Assembly (NCBI GenBank): GCA_945897465.1 | Contig: CAMDFK010000014.1 | Span: forward strand, 1-64,000 | DNA from: Limnohabitans sp. Rim8 | Lineage (GTDB): Bacteria > Pseudomonadota > Gammaproteobacteria > Burkholderiales > Burkholderiaceae_C | Direction: 5' to 3' | DNA length: 64,000 bases | Position numbers and translations under genes: made by a program | The notes under the pieces: model-generated | What the model was told of the DNA's origin: nothing | The model's input: the letters and a program-made list of their open reading frames with translations, nothing else | The model's database searches: none | In this document: in pieces, positions 16,253 through 23,672 of the stretch | Position numbering within the stretch: position 1 is the first letter of the stretch | Layout: each line of letters starts with the position of its first letter

Positions 16253-16600
16253 TTCAATCGCTGTGTCGCGTCCCAGTGTTTTTCAAACTGCATCGTACTG
16301 ACTTAGCCCAGCATGGAGTGCAACCGGAGGTGGTTGTAGAACGTCAGCCAATCAATCACCTCGTCCATCGCCTGCCTACGGGTTGAAAACCTCTGTCCGA
16401 AAACCTGCCCACCTTCAAGCGACCCCACTGACTCTCCGTGGGTGCGTTGTCCCAGCAGTTTCCCTTGCGGCTCATGGAACTTCTCATTTTGTAACCCGCC
16501 AGCGTGGCCTGTAACTCATACCGCAGTATTGGCTGCCTCGGTCCGAATGGAAGAGCAGGCCTGGCGCTGGCTGACGCCGGATACATGCCATCTTTATCGC
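16253..16600 (-). pseudogene. IS3-family orfB (integrase core) C-terminal remnant
   Basis: Minus-strand reading gives YELQATLAGYKMRSSMSRKG, then NCWDNAPTES, the end of the DDE integrase core including the final Glu. Beyond a frameshift, DEVIDWLTFYNH and MQFEKHWDA follow in another frame, with an in-frame stop after HSMLG. The N-terminal two-thirds, including the first two catalytic Asp residues, is missing. Confidence 0.85.
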
Positions 16601-16605
16601 GTTTG

Positions 16606-16860
16606 TCACCAGGCTGCTTTGCATGTGAGGCTGCATGCTCCATACCGGCGGGCCAGCTCCATTTGCTCCGCACTGACAGGCTTATCCCCCGCGCCTTTGA
16701 GTTGGCATTTGGCACTGAGCTTGACCCAGTTGTCCAGGCATGCTTTTGGGATGCCCAACACTTTGGCTGTGACCGCCGCCGCCAGCCCACCTTTGACCAG
16801 CCTGACCGCCTCCATCTTGAATTCCAACGTGTACTTGGTCCGTTTTCTCGTTTCACGCAT
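16606..16860 (-). pseudogene. IS3-family orfA transposase, truncated
   Basis: 84 residues beginning MRETRKRTKYTLEFKMEAVR, the usual IS3 OrfA helix-turn-helix N-terminus, followed by AKVLGIPKACLDNWV and KGAGDKPVSAEQMELAR. After ELAR the sequence changes to RYGACSLTCKAAW instead of the leucine-zipper end, showing a frameshift or deletion. It should bind IS ends with OrfB but is incomplete. Confidence 0.85.
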
Positions 16861-16925
16861 CTCGTTCTCCTTGGACTGATTTTTTTACCATCAGCTAAGC
16901 AGTACGTTTTTCGGGGGCAAGGTCA

Positions 16926-17201: not shown

Positions 17202-20200
17202 ATGTCCCAAGGCCTCATCCGCATCCGTGGTGCCCGTCAGCACAACCTCAAAAACATTGACCTCGACATCCGTACCGGCGAGTTGACGGTGGTCACTGGC
17301 CCCAGCGGCTCGGGCAAATCGAGCTTGGTGTTTGACACGCTGTACGCCGAGGGCCAACGCCGCTATGTGGAGACCTTCAGCGCCTACGCCCGCCAGTTCC
17401 TGGACCGCATGGACAAACCGGCCGTGGACAAGGTCGAAGGCGTGCCCCCGGCGATTGCGATTGACCAGACCAACCCGGTGCGCAGCTCGCGCTCGACCGT
17501 GGGCACCATGACCGAGCTGAACGACCACCTCAAGCTCTTGTTTGCGCGTTTGGGCCAGCTGTTCGACAAAGACACCGCGCAGCCCGTGCGGCACGACAAC
17601 CCCGACACGATTTACGCCGAGCTGGCCCAACGTGCCGCGCAAGCGGGCGACCCGCGCCTGTACCTGACCTTTCCGGTGGAATTGCCCGCCAACACCAGCG
17701 CAGAACAGGTTGAGCAGTGGCTCTCGGCCAGTGGCTTCACCAAGGTGCAGGCTGAGCGCGAAGTGGCCACCCCCACCGGCCCACGCAAAGTGCTGGACGT
17801 GATCGCCGACCGTTTCCGCATCGGCACCGCCGAAAAAGCCCGCGTGGTCGAAGCCATCGAAGTGGCCTTGAAACGCGGCGGCCGCCTCAATGTGTATGTG
17901 GAGAAATTGGGGTCAGATCCCCATTTTTCTTCTGCCAGTGCGGGTGTGACTGATGCATCCATTGATCGCTTCGTGCCTCGCGATGACGCGGCTCCTGTCA
18001 TGGCGAGCGAAGCGCGGCCATCCTTTTCTGAGCCGGCCAGCAACTTTGACCTCTGGCGTTTTTCGACTGGCTTGCATTGCCCGGACAGCGACCAGCGTTA
18101 TACCGACCCGATCCCGTCGATGTTCTCCTTCAACTCGGCTGTGGGCGCATGCGAAACGTGCCGAGGTTTTGGGCGCGTGATCGGCGTGGATTACGGTCTG
18201 GTCATTCCCAACCCCAAGCTCACGCTGCGGGCCGGTGCCATCAAGACGCTGCAAACCCCCGCATGGCAAGAAAACCAAGACGACCTGATGCGCCACGCCG
18301 AGGCCGCAGGCATTCCGCGTGACACGGCTTGGGACAAGTTGACGAAAGCCCAGCAAGACTGGGTGATCAACGGCTCCCCCGAGTGGAAGGGGCGCTGGAA
18401 CCACCAGTGGTATGGCGTGAAACGCTTCTTTGAGTACCTGGAGAGCAAGGCCTACAAGATGCACATCCGGGTGCTCTTGTCCAAGTACCGCAGTTACACC
18501 GAGTGCCCGACGTGTCAGGGGGCACGTTTGAAGACCGAGAGTTTGCTCTGGCGCATTGGCAGCCATTCCGATGCCGATGGGGTCTTGCCAGTGGAGAAGC
18601 GTTTCATGCCCGCGGGTGTGAAGTGGTCGCGGGCGCAGTTGGAGGCGTTGCCGGGTTTGAGTTTGCACGACATGATGATCATGCCGCTCGATCGTTTGCG
18701 TTTGTTCTTTGACCGGGTGTCGGCGTCGGGTCAGGCGTCACTGGTTGCTGGGTTGTTGAGCACGTTGGGGGAGGCTCCGGCCGGGGATGGGCTGGGCTCC
18801 TCATACGGCGGGGGTACGTCAAAATCGTCGCCCAGCCCATCCCCGGCCGAAGCCGTAGGAGCGGGTGCAAACGCACTGACAAACGGAGTCACTAAGACGG
18901 CGATTGTTGCAGCGTCAGAGATGTCGCAAGACGATCAATCGACCACAAGGTCTGCGTCAGAGCGGGGGGCGGGCGACGATTTTGGCGTACCCCCGCCTCA
19001 TGAGGAGCCCGCCCCCCGCTCTGACTCAGACCGAACCGCCGAAGAAACCACTGCAACCAACAGCTCTGATGAAGACCGAGCCTCCGCAGAAACCACGAAG
19101 GCAACAAACCAAGGCCCAAGCGCCGAACAAAAAGCCCTGCAACTGCTGCTGGAAGAAATCACCACCCGCCTCAAATACCTGTGCGACGTGGGCATTGGCT
19201 ACCTCACCCTTGACCGCCAAAGCCGCAGCTTGAGCGGCGGCGAAGTCCAGCGCATCAACCTCACCACCGCCTTGGGCACCAGCCTCGTCAACACCTTGTT
19301 CGTGCTCGACGAGCCCAGCATCGGCCTGCACCCGCGTGACATGCACCGCATCACACAGGCCATGCATCGCCTGCGTGACGCGGGCAACACCTTGGTCGTG
19401 GTCGAGCACGACCCGGCTGTGATGATGGCCGCTGACCGCATGATCGACATGGGCCCCGGGCCTGGCGAGCGCGGTGGGCAAATTGTGTTTGACGGCACCA
19501 CCGCCGACCTGCGCAACGCCGACACGCTGACAGGTGCTTATTTGGGCGGGCGCAAACAAGTGGGTCTGGGCTTCAAGCGCATGGTCACCGACAGCACGCC
19601 GCGTTTGATTTTGGAAGGCGCACGCGAGCACAACCTGCAAAACATCAGCGTGGACTTTCCGCTGCAGCGCCTGGTCACCATCACCGGCGTGAGTGGCTCG
19701 GGCAAATCGAGTTTGATCCAAGACGTGCTGGCCCCGGCACTCATGCGCCACTTTGGCAAAGCCACCGAAACCCCAGGCGCACACGACCGCCTGTTGGGGG
19801 CTGACCACCTGAGCGATGTGGTGTTTGTCGACCAGTCCCCGATTGGCAAAACCGCTCGCTCCAACCCGGTGAGCTATGTGGGCGCGTGGGACGCGATCCG
19901 TGAAATTTTTGCCACTGCGCCGCTGTCGCGCCAACGCGGCTACACCGCCAGCAAGTTCAGTTTCAACGGCGGCGACGGGCGTTGTCCCACCTGCGGCGGC
20001 TCGGGGTTTGAGCATGTGGAGATGCAGTTTTTGAGCGATGTGTATTTGCGCTGCCCCGATTGCGATGGCAAGCGTTACCGCCCCGAAATTCTGGAGATCA
20101 CCATCGAGCGCCAAGCCCTGGTTGGATCGCCACGCTTCGCTCGCGATGACGGCGGCACCTCAAACCCTGTCACTGCGAGCGAAGCGCGGCAGTCCATGCC

Positions 20201-23200
20201 TGTGGGTGCTGGTGTTAGGCACCTGAATGTGGCCGATGTGCTGGACTTGACGGTGAGCGAAGCGGCCGCTTTGTTCGCACAAGACCGCGACGTGATCCGC
20301 GCCCTGCAGCCCATCGTGGATGTGGGCCTAGAGTATGTGAAGCTGGGCCAGCCTGTGCCCACCTTGTCGGGCGGTGAGGCGCAGCGCCTCAAGCTCGCAG
20401 GCTTTTTGGCCGAGGCCGCCAAGAGCGCGTCCAAGAGCCGCCAGAGTTTGGCCCGCAAAGGCACGCTGTTTTTGTTTGACGAGCCGACCACGGGTCTGCA
20501 CTTTGACGACATCGCCAAGCTCATGCGGGCTTTGCGCAAGCTGCTTGAAGCGGGGCATTCGCTCATTGTCATCGAGCACAACCTGGACGTCATTCGCGCC
20601 AGCGATTGGCTGATCGACTTGGGGCCAGAGGGGGGTTATGCCGGGGGCCTGATCGTGGCCGAGGGCACGCCAGAGGATGTGCGCCAACACGCGACATCGC
20701 ACACGGGGCTGGCGCTGCGGGAGTACGCTGAGGCCATGGGTGAGGTCGGCGCTGTCAGGGAGAAGGGGGTTGACTACCCATGGTCTGTCACTGCGAGCGC
20801 AGCGCGGCAGTCCATGTTTGGATCGCCACGTCGCTTCGCTCCTCGCGATGACGCCGAAACATATGCGACCCGCAAGGCACCTGACAACAACATCCAAATC
20901 GTCAACGCCAAAGAACACAACCTCAAGAACCTGAGTGTGGACATTCCACGCGGCAAATTCAACGTCGTCACAGGCGTGAGTGGTTCGGGCAAATCCACGC
21001 TGGCGTTTGACATCCTGTTCAACGAAGGCCAGCGCCGTTATTTGGAAAGCCTCAACGCTTACGCCCGAAGCATCGTGCAGCCCGCAGGCCGCCCCGAGGT
21101 GGATGCGGTGTATGGCATTCCGCCCACCGTGGCGATTGAGCAGCGTTTGTCACGCGGCGGCCGCAAATCCACCGTGGGCACGACCACCGAGGTCTGGCAT
21201 TTCTTGCGCTTGCTCTACGTCAAGCTGGGCATTCAGCATTGCGTGCACGACAACACCCCGGTGCAGCCCCAAACACCCGACAGCATCGTCGCGCAGCTGA
21301 TGACGCAGTTCCGGGGGCAGCACATTGGTCTGTTGGCGCCCTTGGTCAACAACCGCAAAGGTGTTTACACCGAGTTGGCGGATTGGGCGCGGCCGCGGGG
21401 TTACACGCACTTGCGCGTGGATGGCGATTTTTTGCCCACACAAGGCTTTCCGCGCATTGACCGATTCAAAGAACACAACATCGAGTTGCCTGTGGCCAGT
21501 CTCGATGTGCTGCCCGCCAATGAAACCGCCCTGCGCCAAGCCCTGAGCAAAACACTGGAGCACGGCAAAGGCGTGGTGCATGTGCTGAGCGATTTGGAGG
21601 GCTTGCGCGAAGCCATGTTCAGCGGCGAGTCCACCGCCCGCATCGGGCAAAACCGGGTGTTTTCGACCTTGCGGGCTTGCCCGGCCTGCGACACCTCGTA
21701 TGCCGAACTCGACCCGCGTTTGTTCTCTTACAACAGCAAACATGGTTGGTGCCCCGATTGCGTGGGCACGGGCGTCAAGCTCAGCAAAGACGAACGCCAA
21801 GTGTTTGACGATTCGGTGCAAGACGACAAACAAAAAGGACGTGAACAAACCTTTGCCGAACCCGAGATCGAAGACTTGGCCAACGTGGCCTGCCCCAGCT
21901 GCGAAGGCACCCGCCTGAACGCCACGGCGCGTGCCGTGCGCTTGGGCTCGGCGTCTGGCCAGGGCTGGCGCATCACCGACATCGCCAGTTTGTCGGTGAC
22001 CGATGTGCGACATTGGGTGGACAAGTTGCAGCTGACAGGCCGCGATGCCGACATCGCCCGCGACTTAGTGCCCGAAATCAAAAGCCGCTTGGAGTTTTTG
22101 GAAGAAGTGGGTCTGGGTTACCTCACGCTCGATCGGGGTGCGCCCACGCTCTCAGGCGGCGAGGCTCAGCGCATCCGCTTGGCCGCGCAACTGGGCAGCA
22201 ACTTGCAGGGCGTGGGCTACGTGCTCGACGAGCCGACCATTGGCTTGCACGCTCGCGACAACCAGATCTTGCTCAATGCCCTGCACAAGTTGGGTGAGAA
22301 AGGCAACACGCTGGTGGTGGTGGAGCACGATGAGGACACCATTCGCCGCGCGGATCACATCATCGACATTGGCCCGAGTGCGGGCAAACGCGGTGGCCGC
22401 TTGGTGGCGCAAGGTTCGGTGGCAGACATCACCGCGTCTGCCGATTCACAAACCGGGCGCTATTTGTTGCACGCGATGAAGCATCCGATGCAGGTTCGGC
22501 GCGAAGTGAATGGATCGCCACGCTTCGCTCGCGATGACGAGAAGCACGTCATTGCGAGGAGCGCAGCGACGCGGCAATCCATGCCCGATGCACCTCAAAC
22601 GCCTGAACTGCAATGGCTCACGCTCACCGGTGCCAACCTGCACAACCTGCGCCAAGTCGATGTGCAAGTGCCGCTCAAGCGACTGGTGGCTGTGACCGGC
22701 GTCAGTGGCTCCGGCAAATCCACCTTGGCCCGTGATGTGCTGCTGGCCAATGTGCAAGCCCTGGTCAGCCAGCGCTCCACCTTTGCAGGCCGCACCGCAC
22801 AAGACGCAGGCCAACGCGTGGCTTTGACCGCGTGCAGTGATGTGCAAGGTTTTGAAACCATCGACCGCGTGCTCGAAGTGGACCAAACGCCCATCGGTAA
22901 AACACCACGTTCCTGCCCTGCCACCTACATCGGTTTTTGGGACACGATCCGCAAACTGTTTGCCGAAACCCTCGAGGCCAAAGCCCGTGGCTATGCCGCC
23001 GGGCGTTTCAGCTTCAACACCGGCGAAGGCCGCTGCCCCAGTTGCGAAGGCCAGGGCATGCGCACCATCGAGATGAGTTTCTTGCCCGATGTGAAAGTGC
23101 CTTGCGAAACTTGCCGAGGCGCCCGCTTCAACCCAGAAACTTTGGCCGTCACTTGGCGCGGCAAGAGCATCGGCGACGTGCTGCAGATGGAGGTGGACGA

Positions 23201-23672
23201 AGCGGTGGACTTTTTTGCCAGCATGCCCAGCATTGCGCACCCGCTGCAGTTGCTCAAGGATGTGGGCCTGGGTTACCTGACTTTGGGCCAGCCTTCACCC
23301 ACGCTCAGCGGCGGCGAGGCGCAGCGCATCAAGTTGGTGACCGAGTTGACCAAGGTACGCGACGAAGTCGGCAAGCGCGGCAACAAAGCACCGCACACGC
23401 TCTATGTGCTGGACGAACCCACGGTGGGTCTGCACATGGCCGATGTGGACAAACTCATCAGCGTGTTGCACCGCCTGGTCAACGCCGGTCACAGCGTGAT
23501 CGTGATCGAGCACGACCTGGATGTGATCGCCGAAGCCGACTGGGTGATTGACCTGGGGCCAGAGGGCGGTAACGCAGGTGGCCGCATCGTGGCGGCCATG
23601 ACGCCCGAGGCGCTGGTGCGCTTGGGCACCCACACCGGTGTGGCGCTGGGACCTGTCTTGGCCAGGGTTTGA
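17202..23672 (+). CDS. uvrA: Tandem-fused excinuclease ABC subunit UvrA (2156 aa)
   Basis: Two UvrA units in one chain, each with two ABC ATPase modules. Walker A motifs lie near residues 33 (GPSGSGKSS), 829 (GVSGSGKSS), 1257 and 1833 (GVSGSGKST). All four LSGGE signatures are intact (LSGGEVQRINL, LSGGEAQRLKL, LSGGEAQRIRL, LSGGEAQRIKL). UvrA detects bulky DNA lesions as a dimer and loads UvrB; a fused chain could act as a built-in dimer. Zinc modules have CXXC pairs except near residue 292, where HCPDSD stands where CPxC is expected. The chain is long partly because palindromic repeats are read in frame (residues about 235-274, 524-610, 975-998, 1196-1217, 1770-1793). A normal single uvrA is not in this window. 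Confidence 0.93.
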   Translation: MSQGLIRIRGARQHNLKNIDLDIRTGELTVVTGPSGSGKSSLVFDTLYAEGQRRYVETFSAYARQFLDRMDKPAVDKVEGVPPAIAIDQTNPVRSSRSTVGTMTELNDHLKLLFARLGQLFDKDTAQPVRHDNPDTIYAELAQRAAQAGDPRLYLTFPVELPANTSAEQVEQWLSASGFTKVQAEREVATPTGPRKVLDVIADRFRIGTAEKARVVEAIEVALKRGGRLNVYVEKLGSDPHFSSASAGVTDASIDRFVPRDDAAPVMASEARPSFSEPASNFDLWRFSTGLHCPDSDQRYTDPIPSMFSFNSAVGACETCRGFGRVIGVDYGLVIPNPKLTLRAGAIKTLQTPAWQENQDDLMRHAEAAGIPRDTAWDKLTKAQQDWVINGSPEWKGRWNHQWYGVKRFFEYLESKAYKMHIRVLLSKYRSYTECPTCQGARLKTESLLWRIGSHSDADGVLPVEKRFMPAGVKWSRAQLEALPGLSLHDMMIMPLDRLRLFFDRVSASGQASLVAGLLSTLGEAPAGDGLGSSYGGGTSKSSPSPSPAEAVGAGANALTNGVTKTAIVAASEMSQDDQSTTRSASERGAGDDFGVPPPHEEPAPRSDSDRTAEETTATNSSDEDRASAETTKATNQGPSAEQKALQLLLEEITTRLKYLCDVGIGYLTLDRQSRSLSGGEVQRINLTTALGTSLVNTLFVLDEPSIGLHPRDMHRITQAMHRLRDAGNTLVVVEHDPAVMMAADRMIDMGPGPGERGGQIVFDGTTADLRNADTLTGAYLGGRKQVGLGFKRMVTDSTPRLILEGAREHNLQNISVDFPLQRLVTITGVSGSGKSSLIQDVLAPALMRHFGKATETPGAHDRLLGADHLSDVVFVDQSPIGKTARSNPVSYVGAWDAIREIFATAPLSRQRGYTASKFSFNGGDGRCPTCGGSGFEHVEMQFLSDVYLRCPDCDGKRYRPEILEITIERQALVGSPRFARDDGGTSNPVTASEARQSMPVGAGVRHLNVADVLDLTVSEAAALFAQDRDVIRALQPIVDVGLEYVKLGQPVPTLSGGEAQRLKLAGFLAEAAKSASKSRQSLARKGTLFLFDEPTTGLHFDDIAKLMRALRKLLEAGHSLIVIEHNLDVIRASDWLIDLGPEGGYAGGLIVAEGTPEDVRQHATSHTGLALREYAEAMGEVGAVREKGVDYPWSVTASAARQSMFGSPRRFAPRDDAETYATRKAPDNNIQIVNAKEHNLKNLSVDIPRGKFNVVTGVSGSGKSTLAFDILFNEGQRRYLESLNAYARSIVQPAGRPEVDAVYGIPPTVAIEQRLSRGGRKSTVGTTTEVWHFLRLLYVKLGIQHCVHDNTPVQPQTPDSIVAQLMTQFRGQHIGLLAPLVNNRKGVYTELADWARPRGYTHLRVDGDFLPTQGFPRIDRFKEHNIELPVASLDVLPANETALRQALSKTLEHGKGVVHVLSDLEGLREAMFSGESTARIGQNRVFSTLRACPACDTSYAELDPRLFSYNSKHGWCPDCVGTGVKLSKDERQVFDDSVQDDKQKGREQTFAEPEIEDLANVACPSCEGTRLNATARAVRLGSASGQGWRITDIASLSVTDVRHWVDKLQLTGRDADIARDLVPEIKSRLEFLEEVGLGYLTLDRGAPTLSGGEAQRIRLAAQLGSNLQGVGYVLDEPTIGLHARDNQILLNALHKLGEKGNTLVVVEHDEDTIRRADHIIDIGPSAGKRGGRLVAQGSVADITASADSQTGRYLLHAMKHPMQVRREVNGSPRFARDDEKHVIARSAATRQSMPDAPQTPELQWLTLTGANLHNLRQVDVQVPLKRLVAVTGVSGSGKSTLARDVLLANVQALVSQRSTFAGRTAQDAGQRVALTACSDVQGFETIDRVLEVDQTPIGKTPRSCPATYIGFWDTIRKLFAETLEAKARGYAAGRFSFNTGEGRCPSCEGQGMRTIEMSFLPDVKVPCETCRGARFNPETLAVTWRGKSIGDVLQMEVDEAVDFFASMPSIAHPLQLLKDVGLGYLTLGQPSPTLSGGEAQRIKLVTELTKVRDEVGKRGNKAPHTLYVLDEPTVGLHMADVDKLISVLHRLVNAGHSVIVIEHDLDVIAEADWVIDLGPEGGNAGGRIVAAMTPEALVRLGTHTGVALGPVLARV
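17904..17928 (+). repeat. Mini-palindrome TGGGG-tcagat-CCCCA in uvrA frame
   Basis: An imperfect palindrome of AAATTGGGG / TCCCCATTTTT type with a TCAGA centre, read in frame as KLGSDPHF. It resembles the GGGGTCAGA repeats common in proteobacterial genomes and sometimes linked to REP-associated transposases (recalled, not checked). It directly precedes the palindrome at 17958 and seems part of the same composite insertion. Confidence 0.5.
17958..18023 (+). repeat. Palindromic element A, copy 1, in frame in uvrA
   Basis: Left arm GATCGCTTCGTGCCTCGCGATGAC (positions 17964-17987) is partly deleted compared with other copies. Right arm starts GTCATGGCGAGCGAAGCG and ends GGCCATCC at 18023. It is read as IDRFVPRDD...VMASEARPSF and sits before the first zinc module of half 1. 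Confidence 0.85.
18773..18854 (+). repeat. Hairpin element B, copy 1, in frame in uvrA
   Basis: Left arm 18773-18797 and right arm 18830-18854 are complementary at 24 of 25 positions (inner end GGATGGGCTGGGC / GCCCAGCCCATCC). They enclose a 32-nt loop at 18798-18829 containing GGCGGGGGTACG and AAAATCGTC. It is read in frame within a Gly/Ser/Ala-rich stretch near residues 524-551, between the ABC1 insertion domain and its signature motif. Confidence 0.88.
18951..19030 (-). repeat. Hairpin element B, copy 2, inverted, in frame in uvrA
   Basis: Arms 18951-18974 and 19007-19030 match at 23 of 24 positions (inner end AGCGGGGGGCGGGC). The 32-nt loop at 18975-19006, read on the minus strand, matches the loop of copy 1 at 29 of 32 positions, while the outer stem sequence is unrelated. 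It encodes an Asp/Glu/Pro-rich segment near residues 583-610. Confidence 0.88.
20124..20195 (+). repeat. Palindromic element A, copy 2, in frame in uvrA
   Basis: Arms GGATCGCCACGCTTCGCTCG.. (20124-20150) and ..GCGAGCGAAGCGCGGCAGTCC (20169-20195) are imperfect inverted repeats. It is read as GSPRFARDD...VTASEARQSM. It interrupts the loop between EILEITIE and VADVLDLTVSEA after the second zinc module. Confidence 0.9.
20787..20852 (+). repeat. Palindromic element A, copy 3, in frame in uvrA
   Basis: Left arm GTCACTGCGAGCGCAGCG... and right arm ...CGCTTCGCTCCTCGCGATGAC, in the order opposite to copy 2. It is read as VTASAARQSMFGSPRRFAPRDD and lies in the linker joining the two UvrA halves. Confidence 0.9.
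22511..22581 (+). repeat. Palindromic element A, copy 4, in frame in uvrA
   Basis: Left arm TGGATCGCCACGCTTCGCTC... and right arm starting GTCATTGCGAGGAGCGCAGCG and ending GGCAATCCA. It is read as NGSPRFARDDEKHVIARSAA and lies in the linker between the third and fourth ABC modules. Confidence 0.9.

Follow-up and report, generated by a model that had tools for sequence, protein, structure and literature searches.

Rickettsia palindromic elements share sequence along the stem, and integron attC sites carry conserved R'/R'' boxes where the stem begins at its base. For REP sequences, parts of PMC8266576 describe TnpA-REP as binding one strand of an irregular hairpin, with the sequence of the upper stem and of the loop mattering little. 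Template switching, according to PMC8604942, homogenises the arms of inverted repeats and inverts the spacer between them, and passages of PMC8794818 attribute inverted loops in rRNA genes to the same process. REPs inside uvrA have been published for Thioalkalivibrio and O. terrae (section 15 of PMC3733652), so that on the account given in that section uvrA linkers were already known as a landing place. For the Limnohabitans palindrome family described here, a literature search with most subscription journals outside its coverage returned no printed description.

Two in-frame hairpins in a uvrA-like gene

The window (64,000 nucleotides of contig CAMDFK010000014.1 from Limnohabitans sp. Rim8) contains a uvrA-like open reading frame of 2156 amino acids on the + strand (17202..23672). 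Pfam ABC_tran and UvrA_DNA-bind matched on 17202-20400, in the first half of this frame, which we read as a double UvrA. The frame runs through two hairpins. In hairpin A the first arm (18773..18797, + strand) is complementary at 24/25 positions to the second arm (18830..18854, + strand), and the tip between them (18798..18829) has its conserved internal loop on the minus strand, with CGATTT at 18827-18822 and ATGAG at 18804-18800. Beyond a spacer without assigned strand (18855..18948), hairpin B stands back-to-back with A; its arms at 18949..18974 and 19007..19032 (both + strand) are complementary at 25/26 positions and enclose a tip on the + strand (18975..19006, with CGATTT at 18977-18982 and ATGAG at 19000-19004). 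The arms, 25 nt long in A and 26 nt in B, are each 96% complementary, and 32 nt lie between the arms in both hairpins. The four single-strand folds lay 6.3 to 9.4 s.d. below dinucleotide shuffles, with equally good shuffles in 0/200 for each.

The earlier note had described two hairpins with complementary stems that share a 32-nt loop in opposite orientation and are read in frame in UvrA. Our measurements agree on each count: the second pair of arms extends two bases further on each side than noted, the tips agree at 29/32 positions and both hairpins lie inside the open frame 17202-23672. The statement that the two stems are unrelated to each other holds for the outer part, but the 9 bp beside the tip are alike (inverted repeat I1). 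The hairpins had also been said to form most of the linker; they account for about 166 of its roughly 420 nt, and hence for less than that.

Other palindromes occur in the same gene. An in-frame GAAATTGGGGTCAGATCCCCATTTTTC palindrome at 17903-17929 resembles the unit that forms the terminal repeats of Y1 transposase genes in the genus, and in-frame pairs of CGTCATTGCGAGCGAAGCG-type palindromes, CGTC REP-like by eye, are found at 17967-18023, 20124-20199, 20775-20856 and 22512-22586. Just before uvrA, at 16356-16879, are overlapping frames that we take to be a remnant resembling an IS3-type transposase.

Comparison across loci showed up to four hairpin sites in uvrA, namely A and B, which are about 150-180 bp apart and inverted, C about 1.7 kb on and D about 3.5 kb on. 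The CGTCATTGCGAGCGAAGCG-type pairs at 20775-20856 and 22512-22586 occupy sites C and D, which are tip-hairpin sites in other species. Sites C and D of other species also hold CGTCATTGCGAG-type and GTAGGAGC-type palindromes, which by eye resemble published REPs, and GGGGTCAGATC units. Weak Y1 matches were seen right behind uvrA among GTAGGAGCG...-type palindromes (L459, G310:C9:41000-43500) and, similarly, near uvrA in G304 and G318.

We extracted 40 A/B linkers from 41 loci, one locus giving none. Sixteen were clean (78 bp), 14 had both hairpins, two had A only, six had B only (two of these with a remnant of A) and two had a single hairpin of another stem. Compared as empty sites, in which one arm might equal the sequence before insertion, the 16 clean 78-bp uvrA linkers were not alignable to an arm with confidence. 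Several of the apparent empty sites, both here and in the gap between xseA and sodB, look like deletion scars.

A constant internal loop between variable stems

Genome searches confirmed that the window hairpins are members of a large family of repeated palindromes in which the tip is conserved and the stem varies yet remains self-complementary. The tip pattern, with up to three mismatches, was present in 44/90 genomes of the genus, and a reversed-pattern control gave no match in the same 90. Among 299 genomes of the bacterial family the strict tip pattern matched one genus only; the suggestion of a genus-restricted element was rejected, since structure model R3 (E up to 1e-4) matched 56/299 of these genomes and 37/141 genera. 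One genus with the strict tip against 37 with the structure model, in the same 299 genomes, illustrates how repeats with copy-specific stems escape sequence-similarity tools. Structure model R1 matched 5/349 genomes of the order, all of this same family, and R2 (E up to 1e-3) found 7-27 copies per genome in 11 Limnohabitans genomes and three in G114; the viral contigs searched gave no match. The titles of 97 named stretches with copies refer to Limnohabitans, other Comamonadaceae and Burkholderiales MAGs, a few being labelled Polaromonas or Rhodoferax. Two contigs titled Akkermansia muciniphila (L106 and L125; CALQKH020000013.1 and CALQKH020000004.1) carry Limnohabitans-like hairpins and layout and are probably a mislabelled bin.

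When copies were selected by the tip alone, 156/166 distinct matches, in 19 stem groups at 70% identity, had at least 14/22 arm positions paired. This bears out the core idea of the earlier note, that the tip is conserved while the arms vary but stay complementary. Two kinds of observation that the note had set against its own idea were both found in part. Stems are common to orthologous copies and are shared by some recent copies, namely four units in L281 and two identical copies in L412; with these two exceptions stems within one genome differ between copies, and most copies differ overall. Tips lacking complementary flanks made up 10/166 matches, seven of them distant (5-6 mismatches). The other three (L089, L117 and L181) had good tips with arms from two different hairpins, and mixed arms were seen also in L098 and L118, which are located at contig ends. 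The fused non-complementary copy in L089 (position 2339, JAIYCB010000035.1) lies away from the contig end and has one arm like that of the recQ-side hairpin and the other of the L099 type. In L281 (2878-8746, G315:C1) a two-hairpin unit occurs four times within 6 kb, with shared stems in which minor changes are matched; the fourth unit has a different sequence as its right stem.

Stem length was 23-27 bp in 210/260 copies. Neighbouring pairs less than 400 bp apart, with orthologous pairs counted apart, were back-to-back (-,+ on the CGATTT strand) in 71/76 distinct cases, at a median of 165 bp tip to tip. Further copies in the window's genome lie in the gap between queC and recQ and also in front of a CoA-ligase-like gene (gene names by inspection), and some copies are found near the ends of genes such as xseA and sodB.

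Two genomes (L201 and L202) have, at uvrA site C, a hairpin with the same CTCAT/AAATCG bases and a different inner stem, and subsequent searches with a covariance model found further subfamilies. Based on this inner stem and on the further subfamilies, the constant piece is an internal loop between two variable stems: CGATTT...ATGAG is invariant, while the outer stem of about 25 bp and the short stem at the tip differ between copies in a covarying manner. Within the internal loop we infer a closing C-G followed by G.A, A.G, T.T and T-A appositions. For 45 diverse copies on the CGATTT strand, 91.7% of 1306 cells were paired, both-side changes were seen in 27/30 pairs and the covariation score was 0.817, against 0.095-0.173 when slid. 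This set was chosen by the tip and partly by pairing, hence the tip-only figure of 156/166 is the fairer one.

Models R1 and R2 were built on the strand complementary to the CGATTT strand, and an early impression of Watson-Crick pairing only, with almost no G.U, was an artefact of that strand. Among 4482 cells from 249 copies, the strand first modelled had 206 A.C, 28 G.T and 109 other mismatches; counted as distinct events these became 106, 22 and 81 (A.C against G.T, p 2e-14). Read on the CGATTT strand, the mismatches are mostly G.T and rarely A.C (106 to 22 events). In cells of the strand first modelled, A.C exceeded G.T by 61 to 1 at uvrA D and by 24 to 0 in the recQ-side group, with a slight excess at uvrA B (6 to 2) and C (6 to 4). 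Sites D and B are in opposite orientation, and the excess has the same direction in both, slight as it is at B. We read this asymmetry as a sign that selection acts on the CGATTT strand in its folded DNA form. The earlier note had offered strong selection on structure as one explanation; the strand-specific wobble supports it, and the run lengths and tip inversions described below point to arm-to-arm copying too.

One-strand G.U pairs, covariation and a conserved internal loop could be features of a structured RNA element, riboswitch-like or bound by an RNA-binding protein. We consider such an element highly improbable, given that both orientations occur inside one mRNA (uvrA A, C and D against B) and that the 71/76 back-to-back neighbours place their copies on opposite strands. 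No Rfam family reached its gathering cut-off within 18000-20000.

Matched arm changes, tip inversions and transposase ends

One Limnohabitans subclade has 35 copies with GATCAACATTAATT...AATTAATGTTGATC ends and a common tip. Among them are 33 different left arms, and 25/35 copies are perfect over 26 bp. The arms differ by 28.7% on average, yet 965/980 stem cells (98.5%) are Watson-Crick, the rest being 11 G.T, 2 A.C and 2 other on the CGATTT strand; when the right arms were dealt anew among the 35 copies, pairing dropped from 0.985 to 0.64. The G run and the C run were equal in length in 35/35 copies (6 in 23, 5 in ten and 3 in two). The constancy of ends and tip is partly by choice, since the search pattern demanded an exact match to the 14-nt ends and to a portion of the tip; where the pattern imposed nothing, the difference was 1-2% over the outer 8 nt of the ends and 3.4% over 13 nt of the tip. 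A looser pattern gave 15 more copies, with equal runs by eye in 14 and G.T substitutions in the run of L422.

Nearest pairs of subclade copies with 1-4 arm differences (nine pairs) showed 11 double and 2 single changes, whereas 156 mostly orthologous pairs gave 17 double and 248 single changes, two doubles unpaired on both sides being omitted. The contrast is marked (Fisher 9e-11), for two sets that differ in kind and with nine pairs being few. Single uncompensated changes dominate between close orthologues, which argues that arm copying would not be continuous, and doubles rise with distance. Since the changes are mostly matched in moved copies and mostly single in stationary ones, we think that arm copying may be tied to movement. 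Furthermore, L424/L428 and the two L429 copies are alike apart from a single matched length or a single matched base, and between the two L425 copies the tip is inverted in place. The interior of the 35 copies is oriented one way relative to the ends in 20 and the other way in ten, with five without assignment.

These patterns bear on whether selection alone could account for the arms, in the sense that copies must fold as a DNA hairpin, mismatched copies are lost and compensation arises by point mutation. The strand-specific tolerance of G.T points to selection on the folded strand, the close orthologues with mostly single changes and doubles rising with distance look as two-step compensation would, and foldability of mobile copies would also push toward double changes. 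However, matched runs of 6/6, 5/5 and 3/3 in 35/35 copies, and the single matched difference in each of the L424/L428 and L429 pairs, need coordinated events, and inversion of a tip in place needs exchange between arms. Selection alone therefore appears unlikely to us, if far from negligible; selection for foldability acts in addition to arm copying and could do much by itself. The reported marks of template switching, arm homogenisation and spacer inversion, are present in direct comparisons of some related copies.

Fixed sites gave further inversions. The xseA-sodB gap (51 loci) holds at least three stem types and apparent deletion scars; the arms of L309 equal those of L299 with the tip inverted in place, and L317 is nearly the same. 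A transposase in the interval of about 900 bp between two hairpins behind xseA was considered and rejected, its content being read as sodB. In the gap behind a putative dnaE, 20 orthologous stretches include L445, where the site is empty, L437 and L447, with bare terminal-repeat palindromes, and L431, L433, L440, L443 and L446, whose complete hairpins have five different stems and both tip orientations, the tip of L431 being inverted in place with respect to the other four. L432 and L434 have a second element precisely at the hairpin tip position; L441 is truncated, and L450 bears no relation to the rest. Repeated nesting and replacement make the histories in this gap hard to read.

The earlier note had also proposed that a unit creates an inverted copy of its flank on insertion; a related reading is that it always enters the tip of a pre-existing palindrome, so that the outer arm is target sequence. 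The second elements at the tips of L432 and L434 favour this, and in several subfamilies the outer 8-12 bp are, by eye, more site-specific than the inner stem. In the empty site of L445, TTTAATT runs directly into ATTAATC, whereas in L437/L447 TTTAATT is followed by the element, AATTAA and then ATTAATC. The AATTAA repeat beside the element would fit a 6-nt inverted flank copy but is only suggestive, with other readings possible, since transposase ends can themselves carry TTAATT. By contrast, the arms of the 35-copy subfamily are bounded by conserved ends and are therefore not flank, a stem of 23-27 bp in 210/260 copies is not of a length set by the target, and in many cases the inner stem moves together with the tip. 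The apparent empty sites in uvrA and in the xseA-sodB gap, moreover, include apparent deletion scars. We hold this reading, whether as flank copying or as entry into a tip, to be improbable.

The subclade also offers a candidate for the mover. Its Y1 genes (G303, G306 and G315) and its palindromes have the same GGGGTCAGATCAACATTAATT ends; other Y1 genes of the genus have GGGGTCAGATCCCAATTAA. Among 17 Y1 loci, GGGGTCAGATC repeats were found on both sides in 11 and, by exact match, on one side in two subclade loci; L453 has the repeat on both sides with one mismatch. The four loci without these repeats are two near uvrA and two that are IS200-like. The repeat at the subclade Y1 loci L453-L455 is of the same GATCAACATTAATT version as the ends of the palindromes. 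Because the same GATCAACATTAATT repeat bounds both, in our view the Y1 transposase moves the subclade palindromes, and a Y1 (RAYT/TIRYT-type) transposase is the likely mover in this subclade. The exact tip motif was found beside 0/17 of the Y1 loci scanned. Y1_Tnp matches occur in 85/90 genus genomes as against 44 with the strict tip, and the presence of Y1_Tnp was discarded as uninformative for a phyletic match to the tip. The GGGGTCAG ends are absent from the window's two hairpins and, as far as read, from copies outside the subclade. For the letters of the terminal repeat, the literature search gave only unrelated work.

A proposed mechanism and its relation to known systems

On balance, with confidence little better than even, we favour a model in which these are REP-like mobile hairpins of DNA, each arm being re-templated on the other, and in which the folded CGATTT strand is recognised. 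The recognised form would be a folded single DNA strand with the CGATTT...ATGAG internal loop between stems of free sequence, and by analogy with the behaviour of TnpA-REP the tip would be read by a transposase. Complementarity of the long stem would be restored by arm-to-arm copying, either through template switching in replication or when the folded single strand is repaired or synthesised anew during movement, the latter being, we think, the simplest route. A change in one arm would in this way come to be in both, stems would drift apart between copies and tips would sometimes be inverted in place. At least one clade has its elements enclosed by terminal repeats of the kind that flank a Y1 (RAYT/TIRYT-type) transposase. 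The copies in uvrA may persist because inter-domain linkers tolerate in-frame inserts, whether or not they have any function there. A more radical scheme, in which only the tip and the ends are inherited, one arm is discarded and re-made by fold-back at each move, leaving the stem able to change quickly without loss of perfect pairing, and nested growth arises from insertions into the tip, is tentative, and we would sooner doubt it than adopt it.

The family provides natural replicates for how long inverted repeats stay perfect, and can be used to ask whether hairpin arms are re-templated in single-strand transposition and which features of a hairpin are read by a Y1 transposase. It is also a further case of in-frame palindromes being accepted in uvrA.

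As REP/REPIN sequences and their RAYT (TnpA-REP) are described in parts of PMC3733652, PMC8266576 and PMC3686654, the family resembles them in consisting of short palindromes, mostly intergenic and in inverted pairs. The inverted doublets that mark REPINs correspond here to the 71/76 neighbouring pairs within 400 bp. Recognition of one strand as a hairpin with irregularities is, in the same parts of those papers, known for REPs, and may apply here too. In contrast to REPs, the stem is about 25 bp long and in most copies unlike that of the others, an internal loop close to the tip is what stays constant and, L281 and L412 excepted, there is no single stem sequence per family within a genome; the 7-27 copies per Limnohabitans genome found with R2 are a further listed difference. 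A GTAG or CGTC tag at the stem end was absent from the weighted flank composition of 49 stem groups, where the most uneven position was C at 0.64.

The GGGGTCAG ends of the subclade palindromes and Y1 genes fit the GGGGWSAS motif given for TIRYTs in section 16 of PMC3733652. Terminal repeats of this type are on the 35 subclade copies, as seen from the search pattern that selected them and from their flanks, and are absent from the window's two hairpins; variable arms and a CGATTT/ATGAG tip do not figure in the TIRYT description in that section. Arm homogenisation and spacer inversion recall quasipalindrome correction, which PMC8604942 and PMC8794818 describe as a mutational process acting on ordinary inverted repeats, whereas here they are joined by a conserved tip and the spread of copies. 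In-frame inserts, some of them in repair genes, are a likeness to the Rickettsia palindromic elements as covered in section 15 of PMC3733652. Collectively, these comparisons suggest a family that behaves like a REP/RAYT substrate and yet is not REP by its tags, with the outer ends of one subclade appearing to be of the published TIRYT kind.
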